Of a DNA stretch of 64,000 nucleotides, positions 11,558-36,515 are shown one piece after another. The notes beneath the pieces are model-generated. The model worked only from the letters and a program-made list of their open reading frames with translations, searched no databases and was not told the DNA's origin. This stretch comes from a virus. The DNA is taken from positions 1 through 64,000 of the IMG/VR virus record IMGVR_UViG_3300008107_000102. One strand, given 5' to 3'. Position numbers and translations under genes: made by a program. Numbering within the stretch: position 1 is the stretch's first letter; every line of letters starts with the position of its first letter.

Positions 11558-12628
11558 ATGGCTAAGAATGAGATCTCAGAGCAACTTAAGCTTGCTCGAG
11601 AGCTGGACAATAAGCTTAGAGCAAAGTGCTCTAATTACATGGGGGGCCTTGGCTCTACTAGTTCTATCGAGCCTACTACTTTTATACCCAGTGGTATATT
11701 CTCATTGGACTATGTATTGGGAGGCGGGTGGCCCGTAGGTAAAATAGTAGAGATTGCAGGTGAGACTAGTGTAGGTAAGACCACACTTATGAAACAGTGC
11801 GTTAGTCTATTACAGGCTAAGGGATACATGGCAGCGTGGTTAGATCACGAGAAGTCATTCGAGGTTGGTTATGCCAGGATGATGGGTATGAAGATGGACC
11901 AGATAGCCATGTTCCGCCCCGATACAGGGGAGGAGGGCATGGATAGTCTTATTACTCTATTAGACGGTGGTCTAGTCAAAATAGTCGTTATTGATTCAGT
12001 AGCGAATATGATATCCGCTGTTGAGATAGAGAAGGGCTCTGCTGATGCTACTGTTGCTCAATTGGCCCGTCTGCTTAGTAAGAAGTTACCTCAAGTAGTC
12101 AATGCTGCTAGTAAGACTGGTGCTACCGTAGTGTTGATTAATCAGTATCGCACTAAGGTAGGTAGTTATGGGGCCCCCGTCGGCTCCACTGGTGGTAAGG
12201 CCCTGGCCTATAATGCTGCCGTACAACTGCGGCTAGGACGAGGAGATCCCCTTAAGCAGCGGGGCGTTATAACCGGCATGACTATTACAGTCAAGAACAC
12301 TAAGAATAGAGTAGCTATCCCCTTTCGTGAGGCAGAGTTAGATTTACTATTACCCTATGCAGGTCCCAATGGAAATCTGCTGGCGGGTGTGGATCTAGTG
12401 GGCGACATCGTACGTCAGGCCGTTAAGACTGGTATAGTTACTCGTAGTGGGGCCTTCTATACCCTACCTGATGGTTCTAAGTTCCAGGGCCTAGCAGCAG
12501 TTCGTGCTGGTATTAACCAGAGTATGCTAGATTCTATTTACAGTCAGTTGTCAGAGTATGATAAACAAGACAGCGCAGCAATACAAGTTGATGACACCGA
12601 CTCAGAAACAATTAGTGAGTATGTATGA
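11558..12628 (+). CDS. recA: RecA-type recombinase
   Basis: 356 residues, the usual RecA length. Visible motifs are Walker A GETSVGKTT (about residue 69), Walker B IVVIDSVANM, the L2-type region with NQYRTKVGSYG and GGKAL, and an acidic C-terminus (DDTDSETISEYV). It binds ssDNA and ATP to drive strand exchange in phage recombination-dependent replication and repair. Its stop overlaps the next start (ATGA at 12625), so the two are co-translated. A T4 UvsX-type relative is the alternative; the sequence looks closer to bacterial RecA. Confidence 0.9.
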   Translation: MAKNEISEQLKLARELDNKLRAKCSNYMGGLGSTSSIEPTTFIPSGIFSLDYVLGGGWPVGKIVEIAGETSVGKTTLMKQCVSLLQAKGYMAAWLDHEKSFEVGYARMMGMKMDQIAMFRPDTGEEGMDSLITLLDGGLVKIVVIDSVANMISAVEIEKGSADATVAQLARLLSKKLPQVVNAASKTGATVVLINQYRTKVGSYGAPVGSTGGKALAYNAAVQLRLGRGDPLKQRGVITGMTITVKNTKNRVAIPFREAELDLLLPYAGPNGNLLAGVDLVGDIVRQAVKTGIVTRSGAFYTLPDGSKFQGLAAVRAGINQSMLDSIYSQLSEYDKQDSAAIQVDDTDSETISEYV

Positions 12629-13059
12629 CAAATAAGACAACACAACCTCAGTATAAGGTGACACCACCGAATCAGAAACAATTAGCGAATATGACGCTAT
12701 CGGAGTTGACAAGCAGTATAGCTAGTCTCAAGCAGGCTCTGCATGTTATCAGTGAGTATATGAATAAGCATCTTAAGGATGCGGGCTATACGCCCCAGCA
12801 ATCTAGGAATGACATTTTCTATAGTGCCCCGCGCCATTATACTGATGGGCACGGTGATATAGGCAGTGATGCTGATATGAGGATTAACGATTATACTCCT
12901 ACTAGTGCTCCATCTCTATTTGAAGGACGACTAGCTATTGTAGATAGCACACTAGAGGACGAGTTCGGAAGAGGTGGGGACCTGTCTATTGAGGATATTA
13001 CAGGAGAGCATGAACGGCTCGACCTATTAAATAGCATAAGAGGCAGCCAGCAACAATAG
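12625..13059 (+). CDS. unknown protein downstream of recA
   Basis: 144 residues, acidic, with a short helical region (LSELTSSIASLKQALHVISE) at about residues 27-46. The start overlaps the recA stop by 4 bp and its own stop is one base from the NrdA start. No family recognised; position suggests a replication or recombination accessory role. Confidence 0.5.
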   Translation: MTNKTTQPQYKVTPPNQKQLANMTLSELTSSIASLKQALHVISEYMNKHLKDAGYTPQQSRNDIFYSAPRHYTDGHGDIGSDADMRINDYTPTSAPSLFEGRLAIVDSTLEDEFGRGGDLSIEDITGEHERLDLLNSIRGSQQQ

Positions 13060-13060: not shown

Positions 13061-16045
13061 ATGCAAATCAACGTTATACACACAGATGGTACTCGTACCC
13101 CCTATGATGCCAATCGCGCTATCGAGGTAATTAACTGGGCCTGCGAGGGCCTAGATGTAGACCCCGATAAGTTATCTCGGCGACTTAGTCGTCGCTTCAA
13201 TGATGATACCACTACAGAAGCAATACAGAATGGTCTGATTAGATCAGCAGCTGAATTAGCCGATTTGCATTATCCTGATTGGCTGAAGGTCAGTGGTCGT
13301 CTTCGTATGTGGGATTGGCGGCGTAAGGTTAAGGCCCGCCGCGGCTATCTCTATGGTAATTATCCAGTGGCCTTCGAGTACCTGAGGTCTGAGGGCCTCT
13401 ATGAAGGAGACCTAATAAAGAAGTTCTTAGACACGTATAGTGCTGATGACATTGCTGAAGCCGGCACCTGGATAGACCCAGAGCGCGATATGCGCTTTGA
13501 TATAAGCGGCGCTGATCTACTCACAGCGCGTTATCTACTAGAGGGTGAGTTACTACAGGAGATGTGGCTAACACAGGCACTACTCCTCAGTATGCTGGAG
13601 CCCGCCCACGAGCGCATGACCTTTGCTCATAAGACCTATGACCTACTCAGCCTCGGTAAGATCAGCCTGGCCACTCCTCTTATGAGTAACCTGCGTCAGG
13701 CCGATGGTAGCCTCAGTAGTTGTCATATTATCGATATCGATGATAGTCGCGAGAGTATCTTCGATAATATCTCTCAGCTAGCAGCGATGAGTGCTAATGG
13801 CGGTGGAGTGGGCGTACGCATTAGTAAGGTGCGGGCCCGTGGTAGTCGCATTCGTAAGAAGAAGGGTGCCAGTGGTGGTGTATGCCCTTGGATTAAGATT
13901 ATCAATGCTACCATCGTCGCTACTAATCAACGTGGTGTACGCGCAGGAGCCTGTACCGTAGGTATAGACGTATGGCATGCTGACCTCCTTGAGTACATGG
14001 ACCTGCGGGGTGATGCTGGTAGTGAGCATACGAAGGCTCGTGATATCCTGCTGCAATTCATTATCTCTGATGAGTTCATGCGTCGTGTAATTCTAGATAA
14101 GGACTGGTACCTAGTGTGCCCTACTGAGATCAAGAATGTATTTGGATATCAATTAGCCGATATGTACGGCGATGAATTTACTGATGCCTATCACGTCATC
14201 GAGGCCTATATCAACTCCTCCGCTCCTCCGCTCGACGTAGTTAAGAAGGTCAGCGCTAAGGCTATATGGAAGAAGATGCTGATGCTCCTACTTGAGACAG
14301 GTACTCCTTACGTGGCTTTTAAAGACCGCATTAATGCGTTTAATCCTAATAAGCATGAGGGTATCATCGGTGGAGTAAATCTATGCGTAGCCCCTGAGAC
14401 ACTTCTTATGACTGACCGGGGCCACCTACCTATCGCTACCCTAGCAGGGCAGGTAGTCAACGCTTGGAACGGTAGTGAGTGGAGTGAGGTAACGGTACGC
14501 CAGACAGGGGAGAATCAACCTCTCCTACGAGTCCACTTCAGTAATGGAGAAACTCTTGACTGTACCTACTACCATAAGTTTCACGTACAGCGTCGTAATG
14601 GGATAGATATTGTCGAGGCCCGCGATCTCGATATAGGTGATAAGCTCATTAAGTCCGACCTGCCATTTGTGTCTTCTGATAGCGATGTAGACCTCCCTAA
14701 TGAGTTAACTGTTCCCATTAATGGTTATACTATTCAGACCCGATTAGAGTGGTTGGCTAGGCTGCTTGATTCTGATGGTACTTATAATAGCTTCCAAACC
14801 TTCAGAATAACGCATACCAGTAAGCCCTTCCTATTACAAGTGCGGCTCATGCTACAGACGCTTGGAGTGGACTCTGAGGTTTTCCTCCGGTATAAGGCAG
14901 GGCTTCGGCGTCGTCAGGAGAAGTTCTGCTTATTAATTGATAGGTACGGAGTATATCAGTTATACCAACTAGGCCTACGAACTAATCGCCTTCAGTGGAT
15001 AGCTATTAAACCTAAGTATGACAATACTAATTACATAACTATCAAGGAGGTAGAGCTCACTGGTCGTCACGATAATACGTATTGCGCCCACGAACCTAAG
15101 CGTAACCTGCTCATGTTCAATGGAGTGCTTACAGGCAATTGCGTCGAGTCATATAGTTTATTTAATAGCGGCTACTCACACTGCTGTATACTTCTATCGT
15201 TAGTATTACCTCGTATTGTTGACGATGAGATGGCTGATGTTAGCCGTATGGCTGTTCGCTTATTAGATGCCGCATGTGATCTCACTACTAGCCCTACTCC
15301 TGAGGCCCGCGCTCATGTGAACCGCTATCGTACCATAGGCGTAGGTGTCATGGGACTAGCTGACTGGTTAGCTATTAGACACCTTAAGTATCAGGATCTC
15401 GATGTCATAGAGAAACTATTCGAAGACATCTGCTTCTATACTACTCAGGCTAGTGTAGAACTAGCAGAGGAGCGGGGGGCCTACCCTGCATTCCCTGGTA
15501 GTGAGTGGAGTAAGGGCCTTATCCTGGGTGGTCGCGATAAGGAATGGGTCAGCGATAATAGCGCCGACCCCGAGAGATGGTACGCCCTCATGGAGCGTAT
15601 AATCGTATCGGGTATTCGTAATTCTCACATCCTGGCTACTGCTCCTAACTCCAGCACCTCGTTGGTACAGGGCACCACGGCCTCCTTCTTACCTGTCTTC
15701 TCTCGCCTTACCATTGATAAGAATGGGGCTGGTATTAATACCATAGTCCCGCTCTATATCAAGGAGGCATTTCACTTTTATCAGGAGAGCCGCCATACTC
15801 ATCCCAGTGTCGTAGTCTCTGCTGCAGCAACTATTCAGAAATGGATAGATACTGGTCTTAGCACTGAGTTGTTATTCAACTTCAATGAACACGCCTATGG
15901 CCTCGACTCCGTAATCACTGCTAAGGATCTAAATGATGTCTATCTGCAGGCGTGGCGTGAGGGCCTCAAGACATTATATTACGTGCGGAGTATATGGCAG
16001 GATAAGGTAACTGAGAAGAATGAGTGCCATTCCTGCGCTAGTTAA
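13061..16045 (+). CDS. nrdA: ribonucleotide reductase class I alpha subunit with intein
   Basis: 994-residue precursor. An ATP-cone-like N-terminus (VIHTDGTRTPYD) is followed by the catalytic barrel: SSCHII (active-site Cys at about 221), the active-site NLC-VES interrupted by an intein, and PNSSTSLVQGTTASFLPV. The C-terminus NECHSCAS carries the redox Cys pair that re-reduces the active site. After intein removal the enzyme is about 742 residues, the normal length. It reduces ribonucleotides with the NrdB radical subunit at 17673. The NblA gene follows after 16 bp. Confidence 0.92.
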   Translation: MQINVIHTDGTRTPYDANRAIEVINWACEGLDVDPDKLSRRLSRRFNDDTTTEAIQNGLIRSAAELADLHYPDWLKVSGRLRMWDWRRKVKARRGYLYGNYPVAFEYLRSEGLYEGDLIKKFLDTYSADDIAEAGTWIDPERDMRFDISGADLLTARYLLEGELLQEMWLTQALLLSMLEPAHERMTFAHKTYDLLSLGKISLATPLMSNLRQADGSLSSCHIIDIDDSRESIFDNISQLAAMSANGGGVGVRISKVRARGSRIRKKKGASGGVCPWIKIINATIVATNQRGVRAGACTVGIDVWHADLLEYMDLRGDAGSEHTKARDILLQFIISDEFMRRVILDKDWYLVCPTEIKNVFGYQLADMYGDEFTDAYHVIEAYINSSAPPLDVVKKVSAKAIWKKMLMLLLETGTPYVAFKDRINAFNPNKHEGIIGGVNLCVAPETLLMTDRGHLPIATLAGQVVNAWNGSEWSEVTVRQTGENQPLLRVHFSNGETLDCTYYHKFHVQRRNGIDIVEARDLDIGDKLIKSDLPFVSSDSDVDLPNELTVPINGYTIQTRLEWLARLLDSDGTYNSFQTFRITHTSKPFLLQVRLMLQTLGVDSEVFLRYKAGLRRRQEKFCLLIDRYGVYQLYQLGLRTNRLQWIAIKPKYDNTNYITIKEVELTGRHDNTYCAHEPKRNLLMFNGVLTGNCVESYSLFNSGYSHCCILLSLVLPRIVDDEMADVSRMAVRLLDAACDLTTSPTPEARAHVNRYRTIGVGVMGLADWLAIRHLKYQDLDVIEKLFEDICFYTTQASVELAEERGAYPAFPGSEWSKGLILGGRDKEWVSDNSADPERWYALMERIIVSGIRNSHILATAPNSSTSLVQGTTASFLPVFSRLTIDKNGAGINTIVPLYIKEAFHFYQESRHTHPSVVVSAAATIQKWIDTGLSTELLFNFNEHAYGLDSVITAKDLNDVYLQAWREGLKTLYYVRSIWQDKVTEKNECHSCAS
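14384..15139 (+). other. intein in NrdA, about 252 residues
   Basis: The intein starts at Cys442 (CVAPETLLMTDRG, splicing block A), has block B TYYHKF, a central LARLLDSDGTY resembling one LAGLIDADG endonuclease motif, and ends NGVLTGN followed by extein Cys694. The joined extein reads NLCVESYSLF, which restores the catalytic NLCxE site. The penultimate residue is Gly where most inteins have His, a known tolerated variant. A homing-endonuclease domain of this size is small and may be partly degenerate. Confidence 0.88.
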
Positions 16046-16061
16046 ACTAGGAGAAGTACCA

Positions 16062-16268
16062 ATGGATACAAAGGATACAAATTCACTAACACTTGAGCAA
16101 GAATTACGGCTGCGCGCTACGTCAGATACTATTGATAAGATGTCGCTAGAGCAGGCCCGCCATATGCTCAAGGATGTGGTGAAGCAAGCAATGCTTAGAG
16201 ATAATCTATTCGCGGCTATCATCAAGAAGAATTGGGGTCTAGAACCAACGACCCCACCTAATCACTAA
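16062..16268 (+). CDS. nblA: NblA-like phycobilisome degradation protein
   Basis: 68 residues from ATG 16062, chosen because TAGGAGA lies just before it; an upstream in-frame ATG at 16020 lies inside nrdA. The sequence SLTLEQELRLRATSDTIDKM, then SLEQARHMLKDVVKQAMLRD and NLFAAIIKKNWGLEP, follows the NblA pattern (LTLEQEFxLR ... SxEQAxxxLxxxxRQLMxxxNLFxxLxKxxW). NblA docks on phycobiliproteins and brings Clp protease to dismantle the antenna. Freshwater cyanophages such as Ma-LMM01 and PaV-LD carry it. Strong host clue. Confidence 0.85.
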   Translation: MDTKDTNSLTLEQELRLRATSDTIDKMSLEQARHMLKDVVKQAMLRDNLFAAIIKKNWGLEPTTPPNH

Positions 16269-16277: not shown

Positions 16278-16298
16278 GGGGGCCCCGCCCCCTTTTTT
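16278..16298 (+). terminator. intrinsic terminator after nblA
   Basis: GGGGGC, loop CCC, GCCCCC, then six T. It ends the nrdA-nblA operon 12 bp before the ATG at 16311. Confidence 0.85.
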
Positions 16299-16310: not shown

Positions 16311-16874
16311 ATGGATAATCAACTCGTACGTAACGTCTTTAATATGGTCGCCGATAAGGTAGTAACTACTAATGTTGCTATCAGCCTACTCGGTGCAGAG
16401 GATTATGTCACTACTCTCATTAACTCAGTAGCAGCCGGGGATAAGACACCTGAACTAGCTACTACAGCCTTCTATGACAGACTAGAGCGTAAGACTCTAC
16501 TAGATGTTGTACGTGGTACCCGTCGTAATGTGCCCCTTCAGTTAGCTCTATTGCGTGATATTCTACTAACTATCGAGTTACCAGAGCCCCCCGAATTCGA
16601 GTTTAATATCCTCAGTCGAGATGACTTTCAGGCTCTCCGTGCCCTAGTTTATAAGGCCCTCCCTCGTACAGTAGCTGACCCGGATGGGCAGAAGGCCTAT
16701 GCTAAGTTTACTAATTCAATGGGCCTTGCTAGTACTGAGGTACTCGAGTTATTTGATTATGACGACGAGGAGGAGGAGGAGGAGCTCAATGATGAGCTTC
16801 AAGAACTAGCCGCCGAGTTCAAGGAGGAGTTGAGCTTAATCACGAATGTAGAATCTAAGGCACCCCAAGACTAA
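16311..16874 (+). CDS. unknown protein with acidic tail
   Basis: 187 residues, mainly helical, with an unbroken acidic run DDEEEEEELNDE near residue 153. GGAG at 16303 gives a ribosome-binding site. The stop shares a base with the next start. No family recognised; acidic C-terminal runs occur in DNA-mimic, chaperone and scaffold proteins, but nothing here decides between them. Confidence 0.55.
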   Translation: MDNQLVRNVFNMVADKVVTTNVAISLLGAEDYVTTLINSVAAGDKTPELATTAFYDRLERKTLLDVVRGTRRNVPLQLALLRDILLTIELPEPPEFEFNILSRDDFQALRALVYKALPRTVADPDGQKAYAKFTNSMGLASTEVLELFDYDDEEEEEELNDELQELAAEFKEELSLITNVESKAPQD

Positions 16875-17668
16875 TGCACGCTTATATTGATGAGATACGC
16901 GCCCTCCGCCCTCTCGGCAATACAATAGAGCTGGCTATAGTTAAGCATCGCCAGGTGATAGTACAACGCGGACTGTTTGCAGTCGGTAGTCTATGTATTT
17001 ATGTGGCTCCTGGCTCTATTCTACGGAATGGGCTAGGGCCCTATAAGCCCGGCTATAGAGTTAAGATACGTAGTTACAATGGATATACTAGCCAGGGGTT
17101 AATATTACAGACCCCTCTTAATTTTATTAATTATCAACTAGGACACGATGTCAGTCAGGAACTAGCTATTGATTATCCTACTACGACTCTGCCTGCTATT
17201 ATACCTGCCCCGCGCCTTACCGAGTGCAGTGATTATAGTAAGGCGCGGGCCCTGGGTATGTACAGTTGGTATGAGTTACCCCCCGGTCAAGACTGCGCTC
17301 TATACGTCATAGATGGTGTATTTGGTTCTGGCCCTATAAGTGTTGATTATGATACCACGACTATATCAGCGTGTATGCGCGCATGGGGCGGAGATCTAGT
17401 AGTATGGGGTAGATACAGTGGTATATTCCTGATATATGATCTATATTTTATAGATCAGCAGCGTTATGCCACTCTAGAAGAGATAGAGGATTTCCTACTA
17501 GAAGTGCCCCTCCAAAGTTTATTAATTGAGAGACATGCCTCGTTACCTTTAACTGCTGATACTCTTCATATACTGTGCTCTACTGCCAATACTACCGTAC
17601 CTAGCAGTCACGTATTGTTGAAAGCAGAGGGGCCCGAGCCATCTCAATTCGTGGTTAAGCCACGTTAA
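16874..17668 (+). CDS. RNA-ligase-like protein (DRB0094-type N-terminal domain), active site degenerate
   Basis: 264 residues. Residues about 15-95 (NTIELAIVKHRQVIVQRG, SLCIYVAPGSIL, YRVKIRSYNGYTSQGLIL, LGHDVSQELAIDYP) follow the OB-like N-terminal domain of the DRB0094 RNA-ligase family. The nucleotidyltransferase domain that should follow has no KxDG lysine; the nearest string is ALYVIDGVFGSG. It may be an inactive or strongly diverged ligase, or an RNA-binding protein that kept only the first domain. It lies between the two ribonucleotide reductase genes. Confidence 0.5.
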   Translation: MHAYIDEIRALRPLGNTIELAIVKHRQVIVQRGLFAVGSLCIYVAPGSILRNGLGPYKPGYRVKIRSYNGYTSQGLILQTPLNFINYQLGHDVSQELAIDYPTTTLPAIIPAPRLTECSDYSKARALGMYSWYELPPGQDCALYVIDGVFGSGPISVDYDTTTISACMRAWGGDLVVWGRYSGIFLIYDLYFIDQQRYATLEEIEDFLLEVPLQSLLIERHASLPLTADTLHILCSTANTTVPSSHVLLKAEGPEPSQFVVKPR

Positions 17669-17672: not shown

Positions 17673-18719
17673 ATGCAAGTACATCTCCCCCCTATCTTTA
17701 ATCCCAATGGTGACGATAGCCCCCAGAAGCGTAGACTATTTGGTGGTAACCCTACTAATATCATTAATCTAAAGGATGTCAAATACAAATGGGCCAGTCA
17801 TCTCTTTACAGAGATGAGGGCTAATATATGGATTCCTCAAGCCACTGATCTCACGCCTGATATTAATAACTATGTCACGATGCCCCCTAATATGAGGCGG
17901 GCCTTCGATGGTATGTTATCCTATCTCACTTTCTTAGATAGCCTACAGACTCGCGTGTTACCGCTACTTATGCCTGTTATTACTGCACCTGAGGTTAGTA
18001 TATGTATGGGCGAGCAGTTATCACAGGAACAGGTACATTCTCAGTCATACGCATATATTATCGAGACTGTAATCCCCACAGATAAGCGAGATTACATCTA
18101 CGAGTTATGGCGGGAGGATACTGTGTTATTGAGGCGCTGTGAGTATATCCAGAATCTCTATGATAGGTATATTCATGAGATGACTATGGAGAATTATACT
18201 ATCAGTATGGTAAGTGACTTCTTACTCGAGGGTATATACTTCTTCCCTGGCTTCCGCTTATTCTACGCTATAGCTAATGAGCGTTATATGTCCGCTACAG
18301 CTGATATCATTAAGCTCATCGAGCGTGATGAACAGACCCACCTTAAATTAATCGCTAATATAATTCGTACCGGCCTAGCTGAGGGTACACTCATGTGGGA
18401 TACGGATGAGATTATGGATCTATTCCGTAAGGCCGCCGAGTATGAGATTGAATGGGGTCTCCATATTGGACTTGGTGTGAATGGTATTAGTGCTACTACT
18501 ATCGAACAATATGCTAAGTATCTATGTAATATTAGGGCCCGCGCAATAGGCTTACCTACTGTATTCGAGGGGCGCCAGTATAGCCGCAATCCCTACGCCC
18601 ACCTCGATAGATTCGCCGCTACTACTGGTGAGGACTCTATCACTCGAGATAACTTCTTTGAGAGTGGTGTTATGTATCGTAACCCCGCTAAGGTAGTAGA
18701 CGGTTGGGATTCTATCTAA
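17673..18719 (+). CDS. nrdB: ribonucleotide reductase class I beta subunit
   Basis: 348 residues. The iron-ligand set is visible: D in FLDSLQ, E and H in SQEQVHS, E in LLEGIYFFPG, and E and H in RDEQTHL. The radical-bearing Tyr is probably in the segment YAYIIE. The C-terminus DGWDSI is short compared with the usual acidic tail that docks to NrdA. It pairs with the intein-bearing alpha subunit at 13061. Confidence 0.92.
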   Translation: MQVHLPPIFNPNGDDSPQKRRLFGGNPTNIINLKDVKYKWASHLFTEMRANIWIPQATDLTPDINNYVTMPPNMRRAFDGMLSYLTFLDSLQTRVLPLLMPVITAPEVSICMGEQLSQEQVHSQSYAYIIETVIPTDKRDYIYELWREDTVLLRRCEYIQNLYDRYIHEMTMENYTISMVSDFLLEGIYFFPGFRLFYAIANERYMSATADIIKLIERDEQTHLKLIANIIRTGLAEGTLMWDTDEIMDLFRKAAEYEIEWGLHIGLGVNGISATTIEQYAKYLCNIRARAIGLPTVFEGRQYSRNPYAHLDRFAATTGEDSITRDNFFESGVMYRNPAKVVDGWDSI

Positions 18720-24911: not shown

Positions 24912-25050
24912 TAGTAAACGATTACGGCGTATACTAACCAACCGTTATCCCTCTGAGAGGGATACGGCATTATTATATGATGTTAATACTGGTAGGGTTA
25001 GAGTAATAGACCTCAGTCAATATAGACATGACGAAAATAAAGATGAATAG
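24898..25050 (+). CDS. 50-residue ORF inserted inside the polymerase gene
   Basis: TTG 24898 has a strong ribosome-binding site GAGGAGG at 24882-24888. The basic product begins LKTISSKRLRRIL and ends RHDENKDE. It overlaps the stop of the N-terminal polymerase part (24911) and the ATG of the C-terminal part (25043), each in a different frame, like a small gene spliced between them. No family recognised. It could instead be the remnant of a longer polymerase insert after two frameshifts. Confidence 0.5.
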   Translation: MKTISSKRLRRILTNRYPSERDTALLYDVNTGRVRVIDLSQYRHDENKDE

Positions 25051-26497
25051 TCGCTTTGCTCTGCAGGCCCCACCGGGCTATGCATGGGTAAGCGTAGACT
25101 TCTCGAGTTAGCTAACTGTCCATAGACAGATATAGACATCGACATCACTAACCTCGCCCCTTTCATGACGAGGATTGCCAGAACCAATTCTGAGGACGTA
25201 AGAGGTGAATAGACCATTGAGCTGCTAATTGCTACAGACTTCCAGATACTTCCCTAGTCTGGATTAACTCTAAGCCTTATTGGTAAGGCGTTGGATAAAG
25301 CCAAGTTATGTTATTAGTAGTGGTCGAAGGGACTTAAACGAGTTTGCTGGTTCTTGGGATTATATCCATTTAAAAATCAGTATGATGCATGTATCTGTCT
25401 ATATAGAAAGAGAGATAAATTTGGCTCGCTTGCTAGGAAACCGGCAAGGTAATATTCCACTAACTCGGGGAAAGGACTCTCTCCCAATCCCGAGCGAGTA
25501 ACACGTCAGTAGGGCTACTACCCATTGATAGACGTGTTACCGTGTAGAGACCATACGTGGAACACCTAAACCTAGTAGAGATGGTGAAGAGATGGTCCAT
25601 CCGTGACAGCGGAGGCAAGAGTTAAGATTGGCGGGGGCCTTCAGTAAGGATTCTGCTATTACAGAGATTTACGTACTCGAAGATGAGTACCATAGAGGTA
25701 TACGACCCCTCCCCCTATCGCCTGAGGGTCTAACTTATACTGACCCCAAGGTAGATCAGCACCTAGTCGCTAGTACGTTCCTGAATAAGGATATAGAGAG
25801 GCGCATGACACACGAGCCCTGGACTGTGAGTGCAGATGATCCTGTCATCTCGCCCTGGCGGAAGAAGGGTAAGATTATGAACTTCAAGGTGATATATGGT
25901 GGTAGCGCTAGTAGTTTAGCAGCAGACCTCAATTGTGATGACAAGGAGGCAGGTCGCTTACTCAAGCAATACTTCACAGGTTTCCATGGCCTCTATACCT
26001 GGATTGAGATTACGGGGAGCCTATGTTCTCGTACTCGATGGGTTCGTAGCGCTATGGGCCGCTTCATCAATGTCAATGAGGATAATGCTAAGGGTATAGC
26101 TGGTAAGAGTACTACGCGGCGAAAGGCAGTTAATTCTGTTATCCAGAGCTCAGGTAGTGAGATGCTGAAGATCTCGCTACCGCGAGTAAGGCAGGCCATA
26201 GAGACTATAGATGCAGGAGAACGGCGGGCCAGTATTATCAACGCTACTCACGATGAAATCAATCTACTAGTGCCGGGCTATGTGGCATGGCAAGTAGTTA
26301 ACTCTCGAGTAGTACCTATCTTGGATCAGGACTACTATACTGGTCAGCAGCTCGATGAGTTTATGCTGGCACAACGTTATGCCGCTGCTGCATTATATCA
26401 GATGGAGAGCGCAGGTAACTATATACTTAAGGATGTGCTGGGCTCCGATATACCATGTCGGGCTAAGCCAAATATACACCGCTATTGGTCACATTAA
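25043..26497 (+). CDS. polA: family A DNA polymerase, C-terminal part, interrupted by a group I intron
   Basis: Exon 1 is 25043-25108 (MNSRFALQAPPGYAWVSV then DFSS), exon 2 is 25616-26497, starting QELRLAGAFS. Joined, they give motif A as VDFSSQELRLAG, motif B RKKGKIMNFKVIYG and motif C INATHDEI, the three catalytic motifs of family A polymerases; about 315 residues. Exon 1 has no ribosome-binding site of its own, and its ATG overlaps the preceding small ORF, so translation is likely coupled. Without splicing it stops at 25109. Confidence 0.82.
25109..25615 (+). ncRNA. group I self-splicing intron in the polymerase motif A codons
   Basis: 507 nt. It follows a U (exon end AGT) and ends in G, as group I introns do. 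Candidate P7 is GACCAT (25549-25554) with ATGGTC (25592-25597), the latter inside GAAGAGATGGTCC, which resembles the conserved S element. Other stems are CTCGGG/CCCGAG (25464/25489) and TAACACGTC/GACGTGTTA (25499/25531). Removal joins the polymerase frame exactly. An ORF inside it (25280-25501) shows no endonuclease motif. Phage SPO1 and relatives also carry group I introns in polymerase genes. Confidence 0.8.
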
Positions 26498-27057
26498 TGG
26501 ATAAACTATTACAATTACTGAGGCTATATAACCCCATGAAGGCCATCGAGGCTTCATTAAGTAACTTCCCACTAACAGACGATTTTGCTCAGCAGGTAGC
26601 TATTAATGATAGGACTTATTTGGATATCGTAAGTGATACCGGTATCGGTGAGTTTCGTTACGAATGGGTACAGTTTAACCCAATGAGTCATGCGGATATG
26701 TTGGTTATGTCTGAGCATATGGCCCTAGTGTTAGACTTTGGCTATCTCTATACCTATATAAAACATGACCTAAATGATGTAGCTATAGTCTTAGAGTACA
26801 GGGCCGCCTTTAACTACGCTACGTTAAATAAGGAGAAGATGGATAAGTTCCTAGGTCGAGCAGGGCGGGCTGTGCATGTGCTTAATAGCTATACTGAAAG
26901 CTACGCAAAAAATAGGAAAAGAGAGGTCATAGAAGATCTAGTCAGTCAGGGCATTACCCTCGACGGTGATAATATGGATATCCTAGACTTCTCTTCACTC
27001 AATACAGATTCTAGTGAAGATGATGACGGTAATGACGGTATCGGTAGCCCAAATTAA
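26497..27057 (+). CDS. unknown protein between polymerase and clamp
   Basis: 186 residues from ATG 26497, whose A is the last base of the polymerase stop. Mostly helical with an acidic C-terminus (DSSEDDDGNDG). No family recognised. Its place between polymerase and sliding clamp suggests a replication accessory role. Confidence 0.55.
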   Translation: MDKLLQLLRLYNPMKAIEASLSNFPLTDDFAQQVAINDRTYLDIVSDTGIGEFRYEWVQFNPMSHADMLVMSEHMALVLDFGYLYTYIKHDLNDVAIVLEYRAAFNYATLNKEKMDKFLGRAGRAVHVLNSYTESYAKNRKREVIEDLVSQGITLDGDNMDILDFSSLNTDSSEDDDGNDGIGSPN

Positions 27058-28117
27058 TATACCTCAGTACGTAGCCGCATTAAAGGCAGTAGTGTCCTGT
27101 CTAGATAAAGACAGCCCGCGAGCTGACGCATCTTGTGTGCGTATGACTATAGGTAAAGGACAAATGCAACTGAGTGGTAATCACCTGGGCTCTCATAGCC
27201 TAATACTCAAACTACCAGTGCAGGCAGATGATGCAGATATCCTAGTACCTGGCGGGCCCCTCCTTAATCTAACTTGTCGTATGGGTACACCTACCTCGCT
27301 TGTTATCGATATAGAAGAGGATAAGATAGTCTATAGACTAGGTGCGTATGGTACTAACTCTACTCCTATCTATAGTGGCTCTCCTGCTACTCCTGTGGTA
27401 CTAGAGAGCGAGGGTATACTAGATAGTAATCTGATAGCCGGGGCTATGCGACTCATAACTGACTATAAGAGTAAGGAGAATCACATACGTCTGGATATCA
27501 CGCCTGATGGCTGCTCTCTTACCCGTCGTGTAGCAGCTAGTGCTTATGTACAGGTATCGTGGGCTGATAACCCAATTGCTCGTTGGTCTGCTAATCTGAC
27601 CTCCCGTCAGCTTCAGTTAGTATCTTATCTAGAGAGCCCCCTCACCTTATCAGTGGGCCGCGCTCCTCGTCGACTAATATTAGATAGCGCGCGGGGCTCC
27701 CTCACTATACTCACCGGTAAGGAAGCAGATAAGATACCCCACTTCGATAGAGCACCTGATGCTGAGTTCCGTGCATCAACTACAATCGATACTCGATTAC
27801 TACTGGGTGCTATCAATTGGCAGAGTACAGGAGCCAGTGTGGGGCAGGCCATACAACTGCACTTCACTAATAATAATTTACTGGTGCAGGGTGCAGGGGA
27901 GCCCGCTTCTATACCGTGCACTATTACTGGTGAGGCCTCTATTAATCTGCGGGCCTGTGATCTTACAACAGTCCTACGAGGAGAGGGACCTATCCAACTT
28001 ACTGTTAGAGCCTTTATAATAGGAGATAAGGCTATATCTATACTTCTCCTAGAGAAGGAAGTTAATGGCTTATCTACTAGAGCTCTACTCACTGAGAATG
28101 TTACCGTAGTAAGGTAA
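27014..28117 (+). CDS. dnaN: sliding clamp (DnaN-like)
   Basis: About 360 residues, the length of a three-domain bacterial beta clamp. The frame opens with GTG 27014, but ATG 27020, 27023 or 27032 are equally likely starts. Features are the alternating beta pattern, a SLILKLPV/ILVPGG region and the C-terminal ISILLL. It overlaps the previous gene by up to 44 bp. It would tether the split polymerase to DNA. Identification is by fold pattern and neighbours. Confidence 0.65.
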   Translation: MKMMTVMTVSVAQINIPQYVAALKAVVSCLDKDSPRADASCVRMTIGKGQMQLSGNHLGSHSLILKLPVQADDADILVPGGPLLNLTCRMGTPTSLVIDIEEDKIVYRLGAYGTNSTPIYSGSPATPVVLESEGILDSNLIAGAMRLITDYKSKENHIRLDITPDGCSLTRRVAASAYVQVSWADNPIARWSANLTSRQLQLVSYLESPLTLSVGRAPRRLILDSARGSLTILTGKEADKIPHFDRAPDAEFRASTTIDTRLLLGAINWQSTGASVGQAIQLHFTNNNLLVQGAGEPASIPCTITGEASINLRACDLTTVLRGEGPIQLTVRAFIIGDKAISILLLEKEVNGLSTRALLTENVTVVR

Positions 28118-28121
28118 CAGC

Positions 28122-28147
28122 CCGGGTTCCTAGTCAACCCGGTTTAA
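28122..28147 (+). terminator. intrinsic terminator after the clamp gene
   Basis: CCGGGTT (28122-28128), loop CCTAGTC, AACCCGG (28136-28142), then TTTAAT. Confidence 0.65.
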
Positions 28148-28214
28148 TCAAAAACTAGGTTAATTGTCAATATCCCCAGTCCGTGGGGTCAGTAAATTCT
28201 CGGAGTTATAATCA

Positions 28215-28589
28215 ATGTCTACTATTCCTACTTTCAATAAATTCGCTCGTCAAGGTGACGTACTTATTCAACGTATTCCAGAAGACAGCATTGACTTATC
28301 GAAAGCTACTCGTGTTGATAATACTGTCTTAGCATACGGTGAAGTCACTGGCCATAAACATCAGGTTGTTCCTGTTGAAACGGGCAATAACAATGCAATC
28401 ATCGGTGAAAATAAGGCTGCTGAACTCTTCCGTCTTGATGACAGCGGCACTCTGTACCTCCGCGTAAATGATAGTACGGCCCGTCTTCAGCACGAAGAAC
28501 ACGGTCCCATTATCTTTAAGCAGGGGCTCTACAAGATCGGTATTCAGCAAGAGTATACTCCTTCTGGTTTCCGCTCTGTAGCCGACTAG
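28215..28589 (+). CDS. conserved small phage protein with GEVTGHxH motif
   Basis: 124 residues. Notable strings are GDVLIQRI, LAYGEVTGHKHQV, ARLQHEEHGPI and YKIGIQQEYTP, a pattern I have seen in uncharacterised phage and cyanobacterial proteins. The His pairs could bind metal. Flanked by terminators on both sides, so it is a single-gene unit. Confidence 0.6.
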   Translation: MSTIPTFNKFARQGDVLIQRIPEDSIDLSKATRVDNTVLAYGEVTGHKHQVVPVETGNNNAIIGENKAAELFRLDDSGTLYLRVNDSTARLQHEEHGPIIFKQGLYKIGIQQEYTPSGFRSVAD

Positions 28590-28614
28590 TACTAATTACT
28601 GTAACCTCTACCGT

Positions 28615-28638
28615 GGCCGGCCTAGTGCCGGCCTTTTT
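28615..28638 (+). terminator. intrinsic terminator
   Basis: GGCCGGC, loop CTAGT, GCCGGCC, then five T. Ends the single-gene unit at 28215. Confidence 0.85.
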
Positions 28639-28704
28639 GGCAACACTCGACGGCATAAGTGTGACATAATCACAGTTTCGCATTTAACCCTCATAACCTG
28701 AAAT

Positions 28705-29100
28705 ATGAATATCATTGACGCTATCATTGACGCTTTAGATCTCAAAAAACCCCAAGATTACCCCTCCAAAGAAGCTTATCAGCAAGACGTTGTCAAAGCG
28801 GTACAGATCTTAATGCGTTTAGGTAATATGGACAATCCCTCGGCCGATTTAACCGCTTTCCTAAACTCTATCCTTGAGAAATTACAAGAGGATGAACTAG
28901 CTATCTACGATAGACGCAGTAAACAAGAAATTATCGCCGATTTAAAGCAAGTTAATAGTAAAATTGTTGAACTCGAGCGAGAAATAGCCGACTTAGAATG
29001 GGAAATTGCCATCAAAAAGGCTGAAATATCTGTGTGGAAGCAGGAATTTTGGACAGGGGCGGGAGGCAACGGAAACTTTGCTCGGCAAGTAGCTGAATAA
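28705..29100 (+). CDS. coiled-coil protein of host-like composition
   Basis: 131 residues. Residues about 70-115 (QEIIADLKQVNSKIVELE, then REIADLEWEIAIKKAEI) form a long heptad coiled coil. AT-rich codon use and the lack of GGGCC strings differ from the phage genes around it. It is immediately followed by the second IscB-type remnant, so both may have arrived in one insertion. No function known. Confidence 0.55.
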   Translation: MNIIDAIIDALDLKKPQDYPSKEAYQQDVVKAVQILMRLGNMDNPSADLTAFLNSILEKLQEDELAIYDRRSKQEIIADLKQVNSKIVELEREIADLEWEIAIKKAEISVWKQEFWTGAGGNGNFARQVAE

Positions 29101-29361
29101 GACCTTTGCAAGAGGTAACTAGCCACGCCCTAAAGCAACAGGGCTTGCCTAAATTGATCTAGGCAACGCAAGTAGAGACTTGGTTATGTTAATGGAAAAA
29201 CAGCTATCTGTAAGCGATACCAGTTGGAAACGATTGGGACAGATAGCTGTTAGCAAGATTCAGTTAATTCGTTGTTCTAGCGTTTTAATTGTTTCTTATT
29301 AATTTATGTAAAGTCGCCCTCCACTATCGCTAAGGGGCGGGATTTCAAACCCAATTTTTCA
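29101..29361 (+). mobile_element. second IscB-type remnant with IS200/IS605-type right end
   Basis: 29181-29361 repeats 41-228 closely (for example GCTATCTGTAAGCGATACC and TTGGAAACGATTGGGACAGA). An 8-bp deletion after position 29193 destroys the IscB-like frame. The right-end hairpin is kept as CGCCCT/AGGGGCG. As in the first copy, the element ends exactly before a start codon (ATG 29362). 29101-29180 holds no recognisable gene and may be an internal or left part of the element. Confidence 0.6.
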
Positions 29362-30444
29362 ATGACTTATCTTGAATTAACTCCGGAACATGAACAGCTA
29401 ATCCCTACCTACAAGGAGCGCTGGATCCGTATGGTAGATCGCCCCTTCGATAAAGTCCTAGCCCGCCAAGCGGTTACTGAACTATATGCCCTACTCAAGA
29501 AGCACTGTGACTTAGGAGATCTCGACTGTCCGCGTACTATCTTCACTAGCTCGCCCATCATGGCGGCCAGTATTATTGCTCTTCTCAATAAAGCTGAGGA
29601 GGAAGAGCAGAGTGTCGTTAGTGGTAAGAAGACTAAAACTAAGTTTACTAAGACTGAACTCACATTAATCAAGGAGTTCTTTAAGCGTAAGCCCGCTACT
29701 CCTGAGAACGAGGCCGTACTCCAGAAACTCGTCGATGCTTATGTTGCAGAGCGGGGCCCCATTGATCCTATTAAGGATAAGGAGTGTAGCAATTATATTG
29801 CTAATGGTCACTTCTCTTACGAGTGCCGTATGAGCTTTGCTGCATTCGCTAACTTCAGCGTCGAGGTACTCGGCGTGACTATGGAGGATTACGATAAGTA
29901 TATGCTCATTGCTGAGAACTTATCGTGGGTATACACCTATGAAGAGTTATGTATTGTATGTGAGCGGCCCAAGGTACATTATACTCTAGACGGCGATATT
30001 CATTGCGATGGTGAGCCCGCGATTAAATTCTCTGATGGCGTTGAATTGTGGTTATGGCACGGTATCCCGTTACCGGCCTTCATGCAGTGTCATAGCTCTA
30101 CCTGGGATCCCAAATGGTTACTTGATGATGAGAAGGGTATGAACTCTGAGCACCGCCGTATCCTCATTGAGGCGCTGGGCTACGAGAATATCTTATCGCG
30201 CCTGGATAGTGAGATCATCAGCACCTATAATACTACTAGCTACGTAGGTTCCGGTAATGAGTACGAGCTACACATCATCCGTGGTGACTTCGGTGGCGAG
30301 GACGCGCATATTCTAACCATGCGCTGCCCTAGCACTAATCACTACCATGCAGTACGTGTTGATCCCGCGCACACCTCAGCCCGCGAAGCTGTAATCGAAT
30401 TCAATAATGGCATAGATCCCGAAAGCTTCGAAATTCAGACTTAA
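29362..30444 (+). CDS. DUF6745-like protein
   Basis: 360 residues. The central segment CERPKVHYTLDGDIHCDGEP, then AIKFSDGVELWLWHGIPLP, and the later NSEHRRILIEALGYENIL, fit DUF6745, a family widespread in cyanobacteria and actinobacteria with no known function. Native phage-like codon use (GGGCCC, GGCGGCC) suggests long residence. Its natural leader was replaced by the IS-type end at 29361, and no Shine-Dalgarno sequence is present. Confidence 0.65.
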   Translation: MTYLELTPEHEQLIPTYKERWIRMVDRPFDKVLARQAVTELYALLKKHCDLGDLDCPRTIFTSSPIMAASIIALLNKAEEEEQSVVSGKKTKTKFTKTELTLIKEFFKRKPATPENEAVLQKLVDAYVAERGPIDPIKDKECSNYIANGHFSYECRMSFAAFANFSVEVLGVTMEDYDKYMLIAENLSWVYTYEELCIVCERPKVHYTLDGDIHCDGEPAIKFSDGVELWLWHGIPLPAFMQCHSSTWDPKWLLDDEKGMNSEHRRILIEALGYENILSRLDSEIISTYNTTSYVGSGNEYELHIIRGDFGGEDAHILTMRCPSTNHYHAVRVDPAHTSAREAVIEFNNGIDPESFEIQT

Positions 30445-30445
30445 T

Positions 30446-31201
30446 ATGACAGCGCTATACCGAGCCGTACAATTCAACCCGCAGTGTACCGTATGTAGTC
30501 TATCTACTAGGCAGGCAGTGAGTGGTCAGTCTGAGAGACCTATTAAGGATGTAATACTGGTAGCTATCTCAGCCTATCCTGGTAAACGGGAGGAGGCCAC
30601 TAAGATGAGCCTCGCTCCCGGCACTAACAATGAGGATACTGGTGGTGCCGGGGCCTTCCTCCGGCGTTGCTTATATTGGGCTATAGAATGTGACCCCACG
30701 TGGGATGGGCCCCCCATTAATGAGCTAGTGTATTTTACTAATGCTATAAAGTGCTCCCCTCGAGACAAGACAGTTAAAGATATTCATCGCTCCCGCTGTC
30801 GGGATACCTGGCTACTCCCTGAGCTCACAGCACTACCGACTGGCGTACCTCTATTACTAGCAGGTAGCGAGGCAGTTAAGGCCATACACGGTCTCGACGC
30901 CACTATAGCCAATTACAGAGGGGCTGTCTATAACTGGCGGGGCCATCCTACTGTAACTACGTTTAATCCAGTAGAAGTAGAGAGAGGTGTCTTCTATAAG
31001 ACTACTATAGATGAAGAGGATGTTAAACGTGACCTCGAGGCCCTACTACGTAGTAAGAAAACCCTGCGAGATAATGACATCGATAAGATAGTTAAGACTC
31101 GTATGTGGAACCCCGTCCCTGTAGGTAGTATGATGTGGTACTTCAGGAAGGATATAAATACCATCAAGCAAGAGATACTGAACTATGCAAACACAAAATA
31201 A
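30446..31201 (+). CDS. family 4-type uracil-DNA glycosylase-like protein
   Basis: 251 residues. CTVCSLS near the N-terminus, then APGTNNEDTGGAGAFLRRCL, FTNAIKCSPRD and CRDTWLLPEL, followed by LLLAGSEA, follow the order of family 4 uracil-DNA glycosylases, where four Cys hold an iron-sulfur cluster. The usual N-terminal GEAPG is replaced by AISAYPGKREE. It would remove uracil from DNA or act as a processivity-type partner in the replication cluster. Confidence 0.65.
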   Translation: MTALYRAVQFNPQCTVCSLSTRQAVSGQSERPIKDVILVAISAYPGKREEATKMSLAPGTNNEDTGGAGAFLRRCLYWAIECDPTWDGPPINELVYFTNAIKCSPRDKTVKDIHRSRCRDTWLLPELTALPTGVPLLLAGSEAVKAIHGLDATIANYRGAVYNWRGHPTVTTFNPVEVERGVFYKTTIDEEDVKRDLEALLRSKKTLRDNDIDKIVKTRMWNPVPVGSMMWYFRKDINTIKQEILNYANTK

Positions 31202-31448
31202 ACATGTCACAGAGCGGGCCGCCTTATTCAATAAGTTGCGCCTTCTGGGTATCAAGAGTATAGTCGTTCATTACTGGCACGATAATAAGCAACCCTGTCT
31301 CCTAGCGCCCCTCTATAACTCTGACGTTACTGACACGTACATGATATCCGCTAACTTTAATATCGAGGAGACTAAATTGATCTGGAGAATTGCGCGCAAT
31401 CTACTGCCCCAAGATAATCAAGAAGGACACATCACTATTATCGTTTGA
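31185..31448 (+). CDS. unknown small protein
   Basis: 87 residues, overlapping the glycosylase-like gene by 17 bp in another frame and ending one base before the next ATG. Contains KHVTERAALFNKLRLLGIK and YMISANFNIEET. No family recognised. Confidence 0.5.
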   Translation: MQTQNKHVTERAALFNKLRLLGIKSIVVHYWHDNKQPCLLAPLYNSDVTDTYMISANFNIEETKLIWRIARNLLPQDNQEGHITIIV

Positions 31449-31449
31449 C

Positions 31450-31620
31450 ATGAATATTAAGAATCTAGCGTACTGGTACCTATTAATTGGGGCCACCTAT
31501 GGTCTTACTGAACGTACTATTGACCTCGCTAAACAGGGGTTCACTCCTCTGGAAATAGGTACAATTGCTGTCATAGTCTTCACCCTAGTATGTATTATCT
31601 GTGTGCGTCCCTATGACTAA
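31450..31620 (+). CDS. small two-span membrane protein
   Basis: 56 residues from ATG 31450. Hydrophobic stretches at about residues 5-18 and 35-53 (IGTIAVIVFTLVCIICV). It overlaps the DnaX start at 31613. No family recognised. Confidence 0.5.
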   Translation: MNIKNLAYWYLLIGATYGLTERTIDLAKQGFTPLEIGTIAVIVFTLVCIICVRPYD

Positions 31621-32704
31621 TAGTCTATCTAATGAACATAGGCCCCGCCGACTAGCTGACTATGTAGGCGGCGGATTGGCTATCTCGCTAGTTAAGGCCC
31701 TTATCAGCAGAAATCTGCATAGCTCGGCAGGTAATAATGTTTACTCGGCGGGGAATATATTAATGTGGGGTCCGCCTGGTTGTGGTAAGACTACACTAGC
31801 TCTACTATATGCTCGTAGCACTCTCTGTCCTAACCGTGAGCCCGGTAGCTGGGAGGGCTGCGGTGAGTGCCCCGTATGTCTGGGTACTGATACCACTAAT
31901 ATTTATCATTATACTATCAGTAGCCCTACTGAGGCCCGGCCTCATATAGAGCGCTTCTTGGATATAGCCTATGCCAGTCCTGTAATAGTAGGGGATAGAG
32001 AAGATCAGTATCGCCAGTTCATCATCCTCGATGAATTTCAGCGTATCAGCCCTGAGCTGGCATCTCTATTACTAGAAGCCATTGAGTTCGGCCCCAATCA
32101 TACCAGTTGGATCCTCTGCACTATGGATAAGCAGAAGCTAATGGCTAATAAGGTGACGAGCCAGGCCATAGAGCGCCGTTGCTTAGAGGTACCGCTATCT
32201 AATCCCCCCATTGATGATATGGCGGGGCGTATTTGTGATATAATGAAGATAGAGCTGGAGGCAGCTCAGGCCCTCGTTAAACTGGCCGGTAGCGCTGGTA
32301 GAGCGTGGTCTCTTCTAGAACGACTACTACTAGTTAATACAGTGGAGGATATCACCTATGACCTAGTTTATGATGAACTGGCAGGTGGCGCTACTATAGA
32401 GGGCCGAGCTGCATTCTGGAGCGCCCTAGCCCTCAGTGATGTGAGAGCCGTCCGCGCTTATATCAAGATGTGGCGACTCGACGTTAATGGGGAGGTAATC
32501 GCAGGCCTTCTAGTGGAGGATATAATTAATAGAATTACTGGACCTAATCCCTCTATAGAACGATTACTTGCTGACCTAGCCCGCTGGTGGGGTAATAAGT
32601 CATACCCACTGGAGGCTGTTCTACTAGCCCATCTGGGTACTAGTGTGGTGTCCCCCGTACCCCTGCTATTAACTCAAGGTACGGGACTGAGGTGGCTGCA
32701 GTGA
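31613..32704 (+). CDS. dnaX: clamp loader subunit (DnaX, gamma/tau-like)
   Basis: 363 residues from ATG 31613. AAA+ motifs are Walker A GPPGCGKTT (about residue 52), a Cys cluster CPNREPGSWEGCGECPVC typical of DnaX zinc modules, Walker B FIILDEF, and the sensor-1 region SWILCTMDK with an arginine-finger-like ERRCLEVPL. It loads the sliding clamp at 27014 onto primed DNA. The stop overlaps the next start in a GTGA. Confidence 0.85.
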   Translation: MTNSLSNEHRPRRLADYVGGGLAISLVKALISRNLHSSAGNNVYSAGNILMWGPPGCGKTTLALLYARSTLCPNREPGSWEGCGECPVCLGTDTTNIYHYTISSPTEARPHIERFLDIAYASPVIVGDREDQYRQFIILDEFQRISPELASLLLEAIEFGPNHTSWILCTMDKQKLMANKVTSQAIERRCLEVPLSNPPIDDMAGRICDIMKIELEAAQALVKLAGSAGRAWSLLERLLLVNTVEDITYDLVYDELAGGATIEGRAAFWSALALSDVRAVRAYIKMWRLDVNGEVIAGLLVEDIINRITGPNPSIERLLADLARWWGNKSYPLEAVLLAHLGTSVVSPVPLLLTQGTGLRWLQ

Positions 32705-33378
32705 TATACCTGACTACTACACCTATCACTCTACTCAACTATCACTTGCGGCAGCAGGGCATTACTCCTCTAGTAGGACACGATGCATCTTGTCTCGAGT
32801 GGGGCAACTTCCTAGAGCCAGTGGTGGTTATATGGGAGGGGCCCCCCACTATTGATCACGTGACACAGGTAGAGGGTAACACCGCCTATCTCGTCTTCGA
32901 TAGGATACCAGCTGCATGGGCCGCTCGCGGTACAAGTTATGAGGTAGACCCCAATCAGTATCAGGCTATCCTGAATAAGGTAGGGGGCGTACTCACACAG
33001 CAGGGGCGCCTTAATCTATGGCGAGCCTATCATATGGCCCCTCGTCGCCTGGGAGCAGAGCTATTAATACTCAGCCTGCTCTATAAGGAGACTGGTAAGC
33101 CAGCAGATTGGGTCGGGCCTAGTACTCGGAGTAATCGAGTACGCCTGGGTCGTGGGGCCCGCCACATACTTAACCTAGATAGTGAGGTATATGTAGCATT
33201 GATGTCTAATAGCCGCACTGATAGTATAGGTGTTGCTATAGAGAGAGTAGCTGCCTGTATTAGAGCAGGCGGTCCGCGCTCTACCTGGCTGGCACTAGCG
33301 CTAGAGGAGTGGATAGCTAGAGTGGGGCCCACCCCATCAGAAAACGACCTCGCCTTTCTTGATACACTTCTGAACTAG
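32701..33378 (+). CDS. possible clamp-loader delta-like subunit
   Basis: 225 residues from GTG 32701, translationally coupled to dnaX (GTGA overlap). Has no Walker motifs; the helical C-terminal half and position next to DnaX fit a divergent delta subunit, which also lacks ATPase motifs. Evidence is context only. Confidence 0.45.
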   Translation: MIYLTTTPITLLNYHLRQQGITPLVGHDASCLEWGNFLEPVVVIWEGPPTIDHVTQVEGNTAYLVFDRIPAAWAARGTSYEVDPNQYQAILNKVGGVLTQQGRLNLWRAYHMAPRRLGAELLILSLLYKETGKPADWVGPSTRSNRVRLGRGARHILNLDSEVYVALMSNSRTDSIGVAIERVAACIRAGGPRSTWLALALEEWIARVGPTPSENDLAFLDTLLN

Positions 33379-33501
33379 GAGAATCTATCTTACCGAGTGC
33401 TGGCTCCTGCCACATAACTACGGCTATCGCATCGATTAGTCGCGTCTATAAGGTTACTGGTCCACCTAAACCAGATATACACCACATACATCTACACGAA
33501 T

Positions 33502-34668
33502 ATGTCTGATTTATTACTTAATGTCGATAACGATTATCTTGATTTAGCTGCTGAACTGAACATTGATATCAATACCATCACTGATACTATTGATATCAAC
33601 ACATCGAAGAGCAGCCTTAATACATACTTTACCTCGCTGCCTAAGGATATTGTCGTCCGCCGCCTCAATAGCGCTAGTTATCAAGATAGCCAAGAGATGC
33701 GCTGGGCCTACCCAGGCCAGGATGACCAGAAGTTATTCGAACAATTCGAGGGCGTGAATGGTGTGATTGTACGGTTACAGGGCGTAATACTACAGCACCA
33801 GGCGCAGTTAGACCACAGCTATTGGGATGAAGCTAATAGTAAATATGTGCGCTTCTGCAATAGTGTGGGATATAAGCGTGCCTATCCTGATGGTAGCATT
33901 AAACTAATCCAGGCCCTCCCTGAGAACGTATGTCTCAAGGGCGTAACTGAATATGGAGATCCACCTAATCGCCCTCTACCTATTGTCGATAAGCTAGGTC
34001 TAGTTGGTAAGAAGGGCATGACCTGTAGTGAATGTATTCGCGCAGGCCTGCATAGTCAAGAGGTAGAAGGTAAGGACCGCCCTGTTACCTGTAGCCCGAC
34101 GGGCCAGCTTATCTTCTATGTTACAGGCTTCACCACTCGTGTATTGTCTAATAAGGGGGGCAAGGTCACATCTACCTTCACTGACTATACAGTGAAGGAA
34201 CTCATGGATGATACTGGCTTCATCCTAATCATTCCCCTCAAGGCAAAGTCTACTCGCCGTGGTATCTGGGATGCCTCAACTAAACAGTGGACTAGTGTTG
34301 GTTATGAGGCTATGGTCAATAATCTCATCTACAAGCACAGCAAGGACTTCAATAATGCTCCTGTTGGCAAACGCGATACTATTGCAATGAAGATGAGTCC
34401 TTATTTTCAGACTATTATCATTAGTATCGTGCCGCCTAATCCAGAAGATAAGAACCCCAAGGCATCACTAAACTTCGCAGTTAAGGAGATTCCTGACTTA
34501 GGAGCTATTAAGGCAGCACGCAAATACTGGCAGCAGATTAATCCTGTTGATGAGATTAATGTCCTCAATGAGGGTGACTTCAGCAACACAAAGAGTGTTG
34601 GCCCGTGTACTGCGGAAATTGTAGAAGAAGAAACAATTGAGATTAATGGGAACCCCTGGGCCGAATGA
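33502..34668 (+). CDS. unknown replication-cluster protein, possible ssDNA-binding role
   Basis: 388 residues. A central Cys set (CSECIRAG ... TCSPTGQ) could bind zinc, beside a beta-rich region (FTTRVLSNKGGKVTSTF). The C-terminus is acidic (VEEETIEINGNPWAE), as in single-stranded-DNA-binding proteins that recruit partners. It lies between the clamp loader and a UvsW-like helicase. No family was recognised and the ssDNA role is inference. Confidence 0.5.
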   Translation: MSDLLLNVDNDYLDLAAELNIDINTITDTIDINTSKSSLNTYFTSLPKDIVVRRLNSASYQDSQEMRWAYPGQDDQKLFEQFEGVNGVIVRLQGVILQHQAQLDHSYWDEANSKYVRFCNSVGYKRAYPDGSIKLIQALPENVCLKGVTEYGDPPNRPLPIVDKLGLVGKKGMTCSECIRAGLHSQEVEGKDRPVTCSPTGQLIFYVTGFTTRVLSNKGGKVTSTFTDYTVKELMDDTGFILIIPLKAKSTRRGIWDASTKQWTSVGYEAMVNNLIYKHSKDFNNAPVGKRDTIAMKMSPYFQTIIISIVPPNPEDKNPKASLNFAVKEIPDLGAIKAARKYWQQINPVDEINVLNEGDFSNTKSVGPCTAEIVEEETIEINGNPWAE

Positions 34669-36107: not shown

Positions 36108-36117
36108 CACTAGCTTC

Positions 36118-36381: not shown

Positions 36382-36473
36382 AGTTAATGCTCTTCTAATT
36401 TCACCATCATCATACTCAACGTAATTGGTTAATAGTAGGTGTTAAGTACCTGGGCAATTAATTACACTCATGA

Positions 36474-36503
36474 TTGACACAGCATTAGTAATTGTGTTAA
36501 AAT
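36474..36503 (+). promoter_or_regulatory. sigma70-type promoter of the tRNA gene
   Basis: TTGACA at 36474-36479 and TAAAAT at 36498-36503 with an 18-bp spacer. The predicted start is about 36510, six bases before the tRNA. Confidence 0.7.
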
Positions 36504-36515
36504 TAAAACAAACAA

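Follow-up and report, generated by a model that had tools for sequence, protein, structure and literature searches.

The window is a 64,000-nucleotide stretch of an IMG/VR virus record that spans 89,435 bases in total. On its plus strand, a tight run of genes leads from a recombinase gene through nrdA into nblA, and nrdB lies beyond a terminator-like hairpin. The features of the region, with the evidence for each in brackets, are the following:

11558..12628, + strand: recA/uvsX-like recombinase, head of the tight gene run into nrdA-nblA (ORFs, profile matches)
12625..13059, + strand: conserved hypothetical protein, phrog_31605 (4-nt overlap with recA; ends 1 nt before nrdA)
13061..16045, + strand: nrdA, class I ribonucleotide reductase (RNR) large subunit, intein-bearing (profile matches)
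14384..15139, + strand: in-frame intein in nrdA, 252 aa, with a LAGLIDADG-like domain (comparison of relatives, profile matches)
16049-16053, + strand: AGGAG, 8 nt ahead of the nblA ATG, likely ribosome-binding site (sequence inspection)
16062..16268, + strand: nblA, 68 aa, phage NblA, PF04485 (profile search, PDB sequences, predicted helices 11-25 and 29-57)
16278..16298, + strand: intrinsic-terminator-like hairpin GGGGGC-ccc-GCCCCC followed by T6 (terminator scan, folding)
16311..16874, + strand: conserved hypothetical protein, phrog_34617, 3' of the terminator (PHROGs)
16874..17668, + strand: RNA-ligase-like protein (phrog_968; RNA ligase in the Ma-LMM01 annotation)
17673..18719, + strand: nrdB, RNR small subunit (profile matches)

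NblA is a cyanobacterial protein that tags the light-harvesting antenna for destruction. The 68-aa ORF at 16062-16268 (+), which runs from ATG to TAA, matches the PF04485 NblA profile with 51.8 bits (E 1.1e-13; curated cut-off 25). The match spans ORF residues 9-56 on profile positions 2-49 of 50, which places the protein within the Pfam family. Its phmmer matches among PDB sequences include the NblA chains 1ojh (8.8e-6), 2q8v, 2qdo, and 3cs5 (0.048). Hence, the first-pass annotation, which had called the gene NblA-like from the DNA alone, is borne out by both the profile search and the solved NblA chains. The only PHROGs assignment of the protein is phrog_23930, whose function is listed there as unknown. 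On the NCBIfam equivalog model for NblA (NF045916) the protein scores 19.9 bits, below the 100-bit threshold; four cyanobacterial NblA stretches likewise reach just 23-36 bits, so this model is a narrow one and does not test membership of the wider NblA family.

The gene has two possible starts. An alternative in-frame ATG is located at 16020, within nrdA, and would yield an 82-aa version. The Ma-LMM01 record annotates nblA from the corresponding longer start, and the MaMV-DC record from the shorter one. The AGGAG is retained upstream of nblA in the related loci L003-L013. We consider the upstream start less likely, since the spacing of the AGGAG suits the start at 16062; the short start, which the first-pass annotation had also chosen, is favoured because the ribosome-binding site fits it. 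Ma-LMM01 nblA has been described as partially overlapping nrdA (PMC4103541). That overlap hinges on the longer start, and from 16062 or the MaMV-DC start the two genes do not overlap.

AlphaFold2 predicted a two-helix hairpin for the 68-aa protein (helices 11-25 and 29-57, mean pLDDT 87.7, pTM 0.60), in line with the helix pair anticipated for an NblA and with the helix-loop-helix of about 60 residues that characterizes the family; the input alignment included 42 further NblAs, taken from IMG/VR and genome loci, so that the model and the sequence match are not independent lines of evidence. A Foldseek search of the PDB with this model, a short helical hairpin and hence a poor query, returned six matches at E<=10 and none at E<=0.001, and VIA-align, confined to these six, likewise yielded nothing significant; the matches listed included no NblA chain. 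What supports the fold is therefore the sequence match together with the predicted helix pair.

We then inspected individual residues in an alignment with 38 other NblAs, of which six are viral and 32 cyanobacterial. K55, W58, R18, E12, Q13, E30, and Q31 of the window NblA are each the commonest residue at their position. I53 and K55 align with L51 and K53 of 1ojh, which we take to be functionally important. The cyanobacterial NblAs (1ojh, 2q8v/2qdo, and 3cs5) share with the window NblA the family, the helix pair, and the C-terminal K..WGL stretch, and this K-x-x-W-G-L part is retained in the Fukuivirus NblAs. Identity to cyanobacterial NblA is about 29-46%, and the window NblA differs in having no phenylalanine at position 15 or 20. 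At position 20, F occurs in 38/38 of the other NblAs, against T in the five distinct Fukuivirus proteins; at position 15, 36/38 have F and those five have L. The retrieval patterns behind the comparison set favour the N-terminal motif and partly cover position 15, and 2q8v, a solved NblA, carries M at position 20. Ma-LMM01 NblA is said to hold all highly conserved residues (PMC4103541); judged by the larger set of 38 NblAs, this does not quite seem to hold.

The phage itself could be placed by comparison with known genomes. Positions 1-25000 of the window show 92.8-93.1% DNA identity over 70-77% of length to nine Fukuivirus-type records, and positions 25001-45000 show 93.2-94.0% over 74-76%. 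Over the 1-45000 compared, this DNA identity marks the window as a Fukuivirus fragment, about 93-95% identical to the Microcystis phages Ma-LMM01 and MaMV-DC. A freshwater host bearing phycobilisomes, as proposed before, is supported by this closeness to phages of Microcystis aeruginosa. Both phages have the same order recA-hypothetical-nrdA-nblA-hypothetical-RNA ligase-nrdB as the window, the place of the RNA ligase being labelled hypothetical in the MaMV-DC record. Their annotated nblA genes (Ma-LMM01 gp005 and MaMV-DC ORF5L) occupy the same place behind nrdA, and encode proteins about 80% identical to the window NblA, which has three more N-terminal residues. A search of phage records with the NblA protein found nine, all of the Fukuivirus group and with 80-81% identity. 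Of the relatives scanned with the Pfam profile, L002 scores 52 bits and L007 59 bits (cut-off 25). Further phages of the Ma-LMM01 group have been reported to carry nblA (PMC12542629, PMC9927357). Recent capture of nblA from the host finds no support from identity, the top match being 46% among the 80 cyanobacterial loci retained of 244 found; for Ma-LMM01 NblA and its M. aeruginosa homologue, 35% identity has been reported (PMC4103541). The window also has a tRNA-Tyr gene at 36516-36598.

The ATG of nblA follows the nrdA stop after a 16-nt gap, and the order is kept in 12/12 related loci (L002-L013), which confirms the adjacency to nrdA noted earlier. The stem-loop at 16278-16292 has six G-C pairs and a 3-nt loop, and is followed by TTTTTT. 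Folded alone, it reaches -12.4 kcal/mol (z -1.97), and 8/200 shuffles fold as well. All 13 sequences (the window and L002-L013) have the hairpin behind nblA, in the GGGGGC/GCCCCC version in eight and in a longer GGGGTGGC/GCCGCCCC version in five; that of Ma-LMM01 has just four consecutive T behind the stem. The terminator that the first-pass annotation had placed after nblA is thus found again as a terminator-like GC hairpin with a T-run. The best evidence here that it works is that the form of the hairpin is kept while its sequence changes between relatives. Our scan counted 10 terminator-like sites in the region, with 4.1 expected.

For promoter-like sites, the scan gave 15 against 15.1 expected, and so supports no particular transcript, including one from a separate nblA promoter. 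We infer that nrdA and nblA are co-transcribed. In Ma-LMM01, transcripts of both were detected by qPCR at 1 h and stood at or close to their peak at 3 h, giving similar early time courses (PMC4103541), and RNA-seq assigned the two RNR subunits to the middle expression class (PMC5780444); these data speak to timing rather than to one shared nrdA-nblA mRNA. The phage nblA transcript exceeded that of host nblA twenty-fold (PMC4103541). Both the position of nblA at nrdA and the similar time courses have already been published in that study.

Comparison with the related loci gives nblA dN/dS values of 0.19 (L005), 0.39-0.54 (L006, L011, L012), 0.51 (L002, Ma-LMM01), and 0.93 (L007-L010, L013), L003 and L004 being identical to the window. 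For the N part of nrdA the values are 0.09-0.16, for nrdB 0.06-0.09, and for two hypothetical neighbours 0.36-1.13, the last being within the range of nblA or higher. Because its dN/dS lies far above those of nrdA and nrdB, the NblA protein would be either much less constrained than its RNR neighbours or subject to driven change, as far as 68 codons, which are few, can indicate. Values of up to 0.93 could also be expected from a decaying copy whose frame is open by chance. However, the nblA frame is open and of equal length in 11/11 related IMG/VR loci, the ribosome-binding site and the terminator hairpin are kept, and L002 and L007 score about twice the Pfam cut-off, which makes decay highly improbable.

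The best explanation as a whole, to which we assign a probability of about 0.9, is that the ORF is the nblA of an uncultured Microcystis phage of the Ma-LMM01 type (genus Fukuivirus) and serves antenna takedown, with its activity, its benefit to the phage, and a transcript shared with nrdA all presumed. NblA would be made in the early/middle phase on a nucleotide-metabolism transcript that probably includes nrdA. The two-helix protein would bind phycobiliproteins and either deliver these to the ClpC-ClpP protease of the host or loosen the rods. Over a long infection, the loss of the antenna would release amino acids and ease excitation pressure. The hairpin 3' of nblA would stop or weaken transcription ahead of the RNA ligase and nrdB genes. 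Freshwater phage nblA expressed in Synechocystis is reported to lead to phycobilin loss, and marine phage nblA is known too (PMC9602691). Phage NblA has been proposed both to supply amino acids and to shield against excess light (PMC4103541), so the idea of the first-pass annotation comes close to the published one, its coupling of antenna breakdown with dNTP production being conjectural. PMC4103541 itself states that direct evidence for phage NblA as the cause of the degradation is lacking. The gene, its linkage to nrdA, and the proposed function are already known for Microcystis phages, which makes the locus largely ordinary. It contains a genuine auxiliary metabolic gene, and adds an uncultured Microcystis-type phage carrying the nrdA-nblA pair to the known ones. 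The terminator kept by form, the absent helix-1 phenylalanines, and the recurring nearness to RNR are small new details that leave the accepted picture unchanged, and raise questions on the way phage NblA works.

NblA has been described as a ClpC adaptor (PMC7966870), and two modes of action have been proposed, namely, ClpC adaptor via the N-terminal motif and structural mimicry (PMC4103541). A diverged NblA might thus still bind phycobiliproteins, no longer recruit ClpC, and loosen the rods or uncouple the antennae. The replacement of F at positions 15 and 20 by L and T in the Fukuivirus NblAs, together with the kept K-x-x-W-G-L, argues for such a mode. Yet the NblAs compared were fetched by patterns that favour the N-terminal motif, 2q8v does without F at position 20, and freshwater phage nblA is reported to bleach Synechocystis (PMC9602691); we regard the ClpC-free mode as unlikely. 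As to the place of nblA beside nrdA, it would rather probably reflect a shared early/nucleotide gene block without functional coupling. nrdA lies within a nucleotide block in both Fukuivirus and the group of contig G005, both RNR subunits share one expression class in Ma-LMM01 (PMC5780444), the nine known Fukuivirus records share the arrangement by descent, and one other contig has its RNR 15 kb away. Against this stand the six of seven RNR-holding contigs that have RNR within 5 kb of nblA, in two further lineages and in other gene orders.

These contigs come from a set of 15 non-Fukuivirus viral contigs that bear nblA, all with NblAs above the Pfam cut-off; seven have RNR and eight do not. 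The gap between nblA and RNR is 3.5-4.6 kb in G004, G005, G007, G011, G014, and G015 and 15 kb in G018, gap ends being domain ends in some contigs. The six NblAs with the short gap score 80-90 bits on the Pfam profile, above that of the window. In G005, G011, G014, and G015 a class I RNR lies downstream of nblA, and in G004 and G007 a phrog_367-type RNR lies upstream; unlike in the window, neither is adjacent. The four class I contigs form one lineage (nrdA 92-93% alike), and the two phrog_367-type RNRs are 28% alike. Assuming uniform placement and taking one contig per lineage plus G018, the Fisher p is 0.016 if the window is counted and 0.058 if it is left out. The test is post hoc, as the idea came from locus L098 in the same data, and phage genes are modular; given these points and the domain-end gaps, we treat the nearness of nblA to RNR beyond Fukuivirus, weakly significant and seen in two further lineages only, as a hint. 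A bolder proposal is that at least three unrelated cyanophage lineages each set nblA beside RNR (a directly neighbouring class I RNR, a class I RNR lying 3-4 kb downstream beyond thymidylate synthase, or a phrog_367-type RNR 4-5 kb upstream), antenna breakdown and dNTP supply being needs of the same phase, and that helix-1 drift would have made the Fukuivirus NblA ClpC-independent. We consider this combination quite unlikely.

Several other viral sequences deserve mention. A second viral lineage, comprising L103 (G005), L120 (G014), L106, and L110, groups nblA with nrdA, nrdB, and a thymidylate-synthase-like gene in a single stretch. L101 (G004) and L102 (G007) are large viral contigs with the phrog_367-type RNR 4-5 kb from nblA, and in L102 a MazG-like gene directly precedes nblA. 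In Nodularia phage vB_NpeS-2AV2, a short protein labelled hypothetical (L104:8980-9156) is a weak NblA match (22.2 bits, cut-off 25), with no RNR annotated within 9 kb, and a like weak match occurs in nine Nodularia phage records. The 97.5-kb viral contig G012:C1, which may be cyanobacterial DNA, has two NblA matches at 34645-34794 and 57479-57625.

The nrdA gene of the window differs from that of Ma-LMM01 in its intein. The intein scores 27.7 bits on LAGLIDADG_3 (cut-off 22.5) and 20.7 bits on Intein_splicing, below the cut-off of 35.8. Besides the window, it is present in nrdA of L003-L005 and absent from L002 and L006-L013, so that 3/12 related loci hold one. It is inserted directly before the C of the NLC motif, presumably the thiyl-radical cysteine. 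We found no report of an intein in nrdA of the Fukuivirus group in the literature retrieved, as far as its text was available, on intein, Microcystis, phage, and ribonucleotide reductase. Relatives of the intein occur in 312 phage records, many of them in NrdA, which makes it a common phage type.
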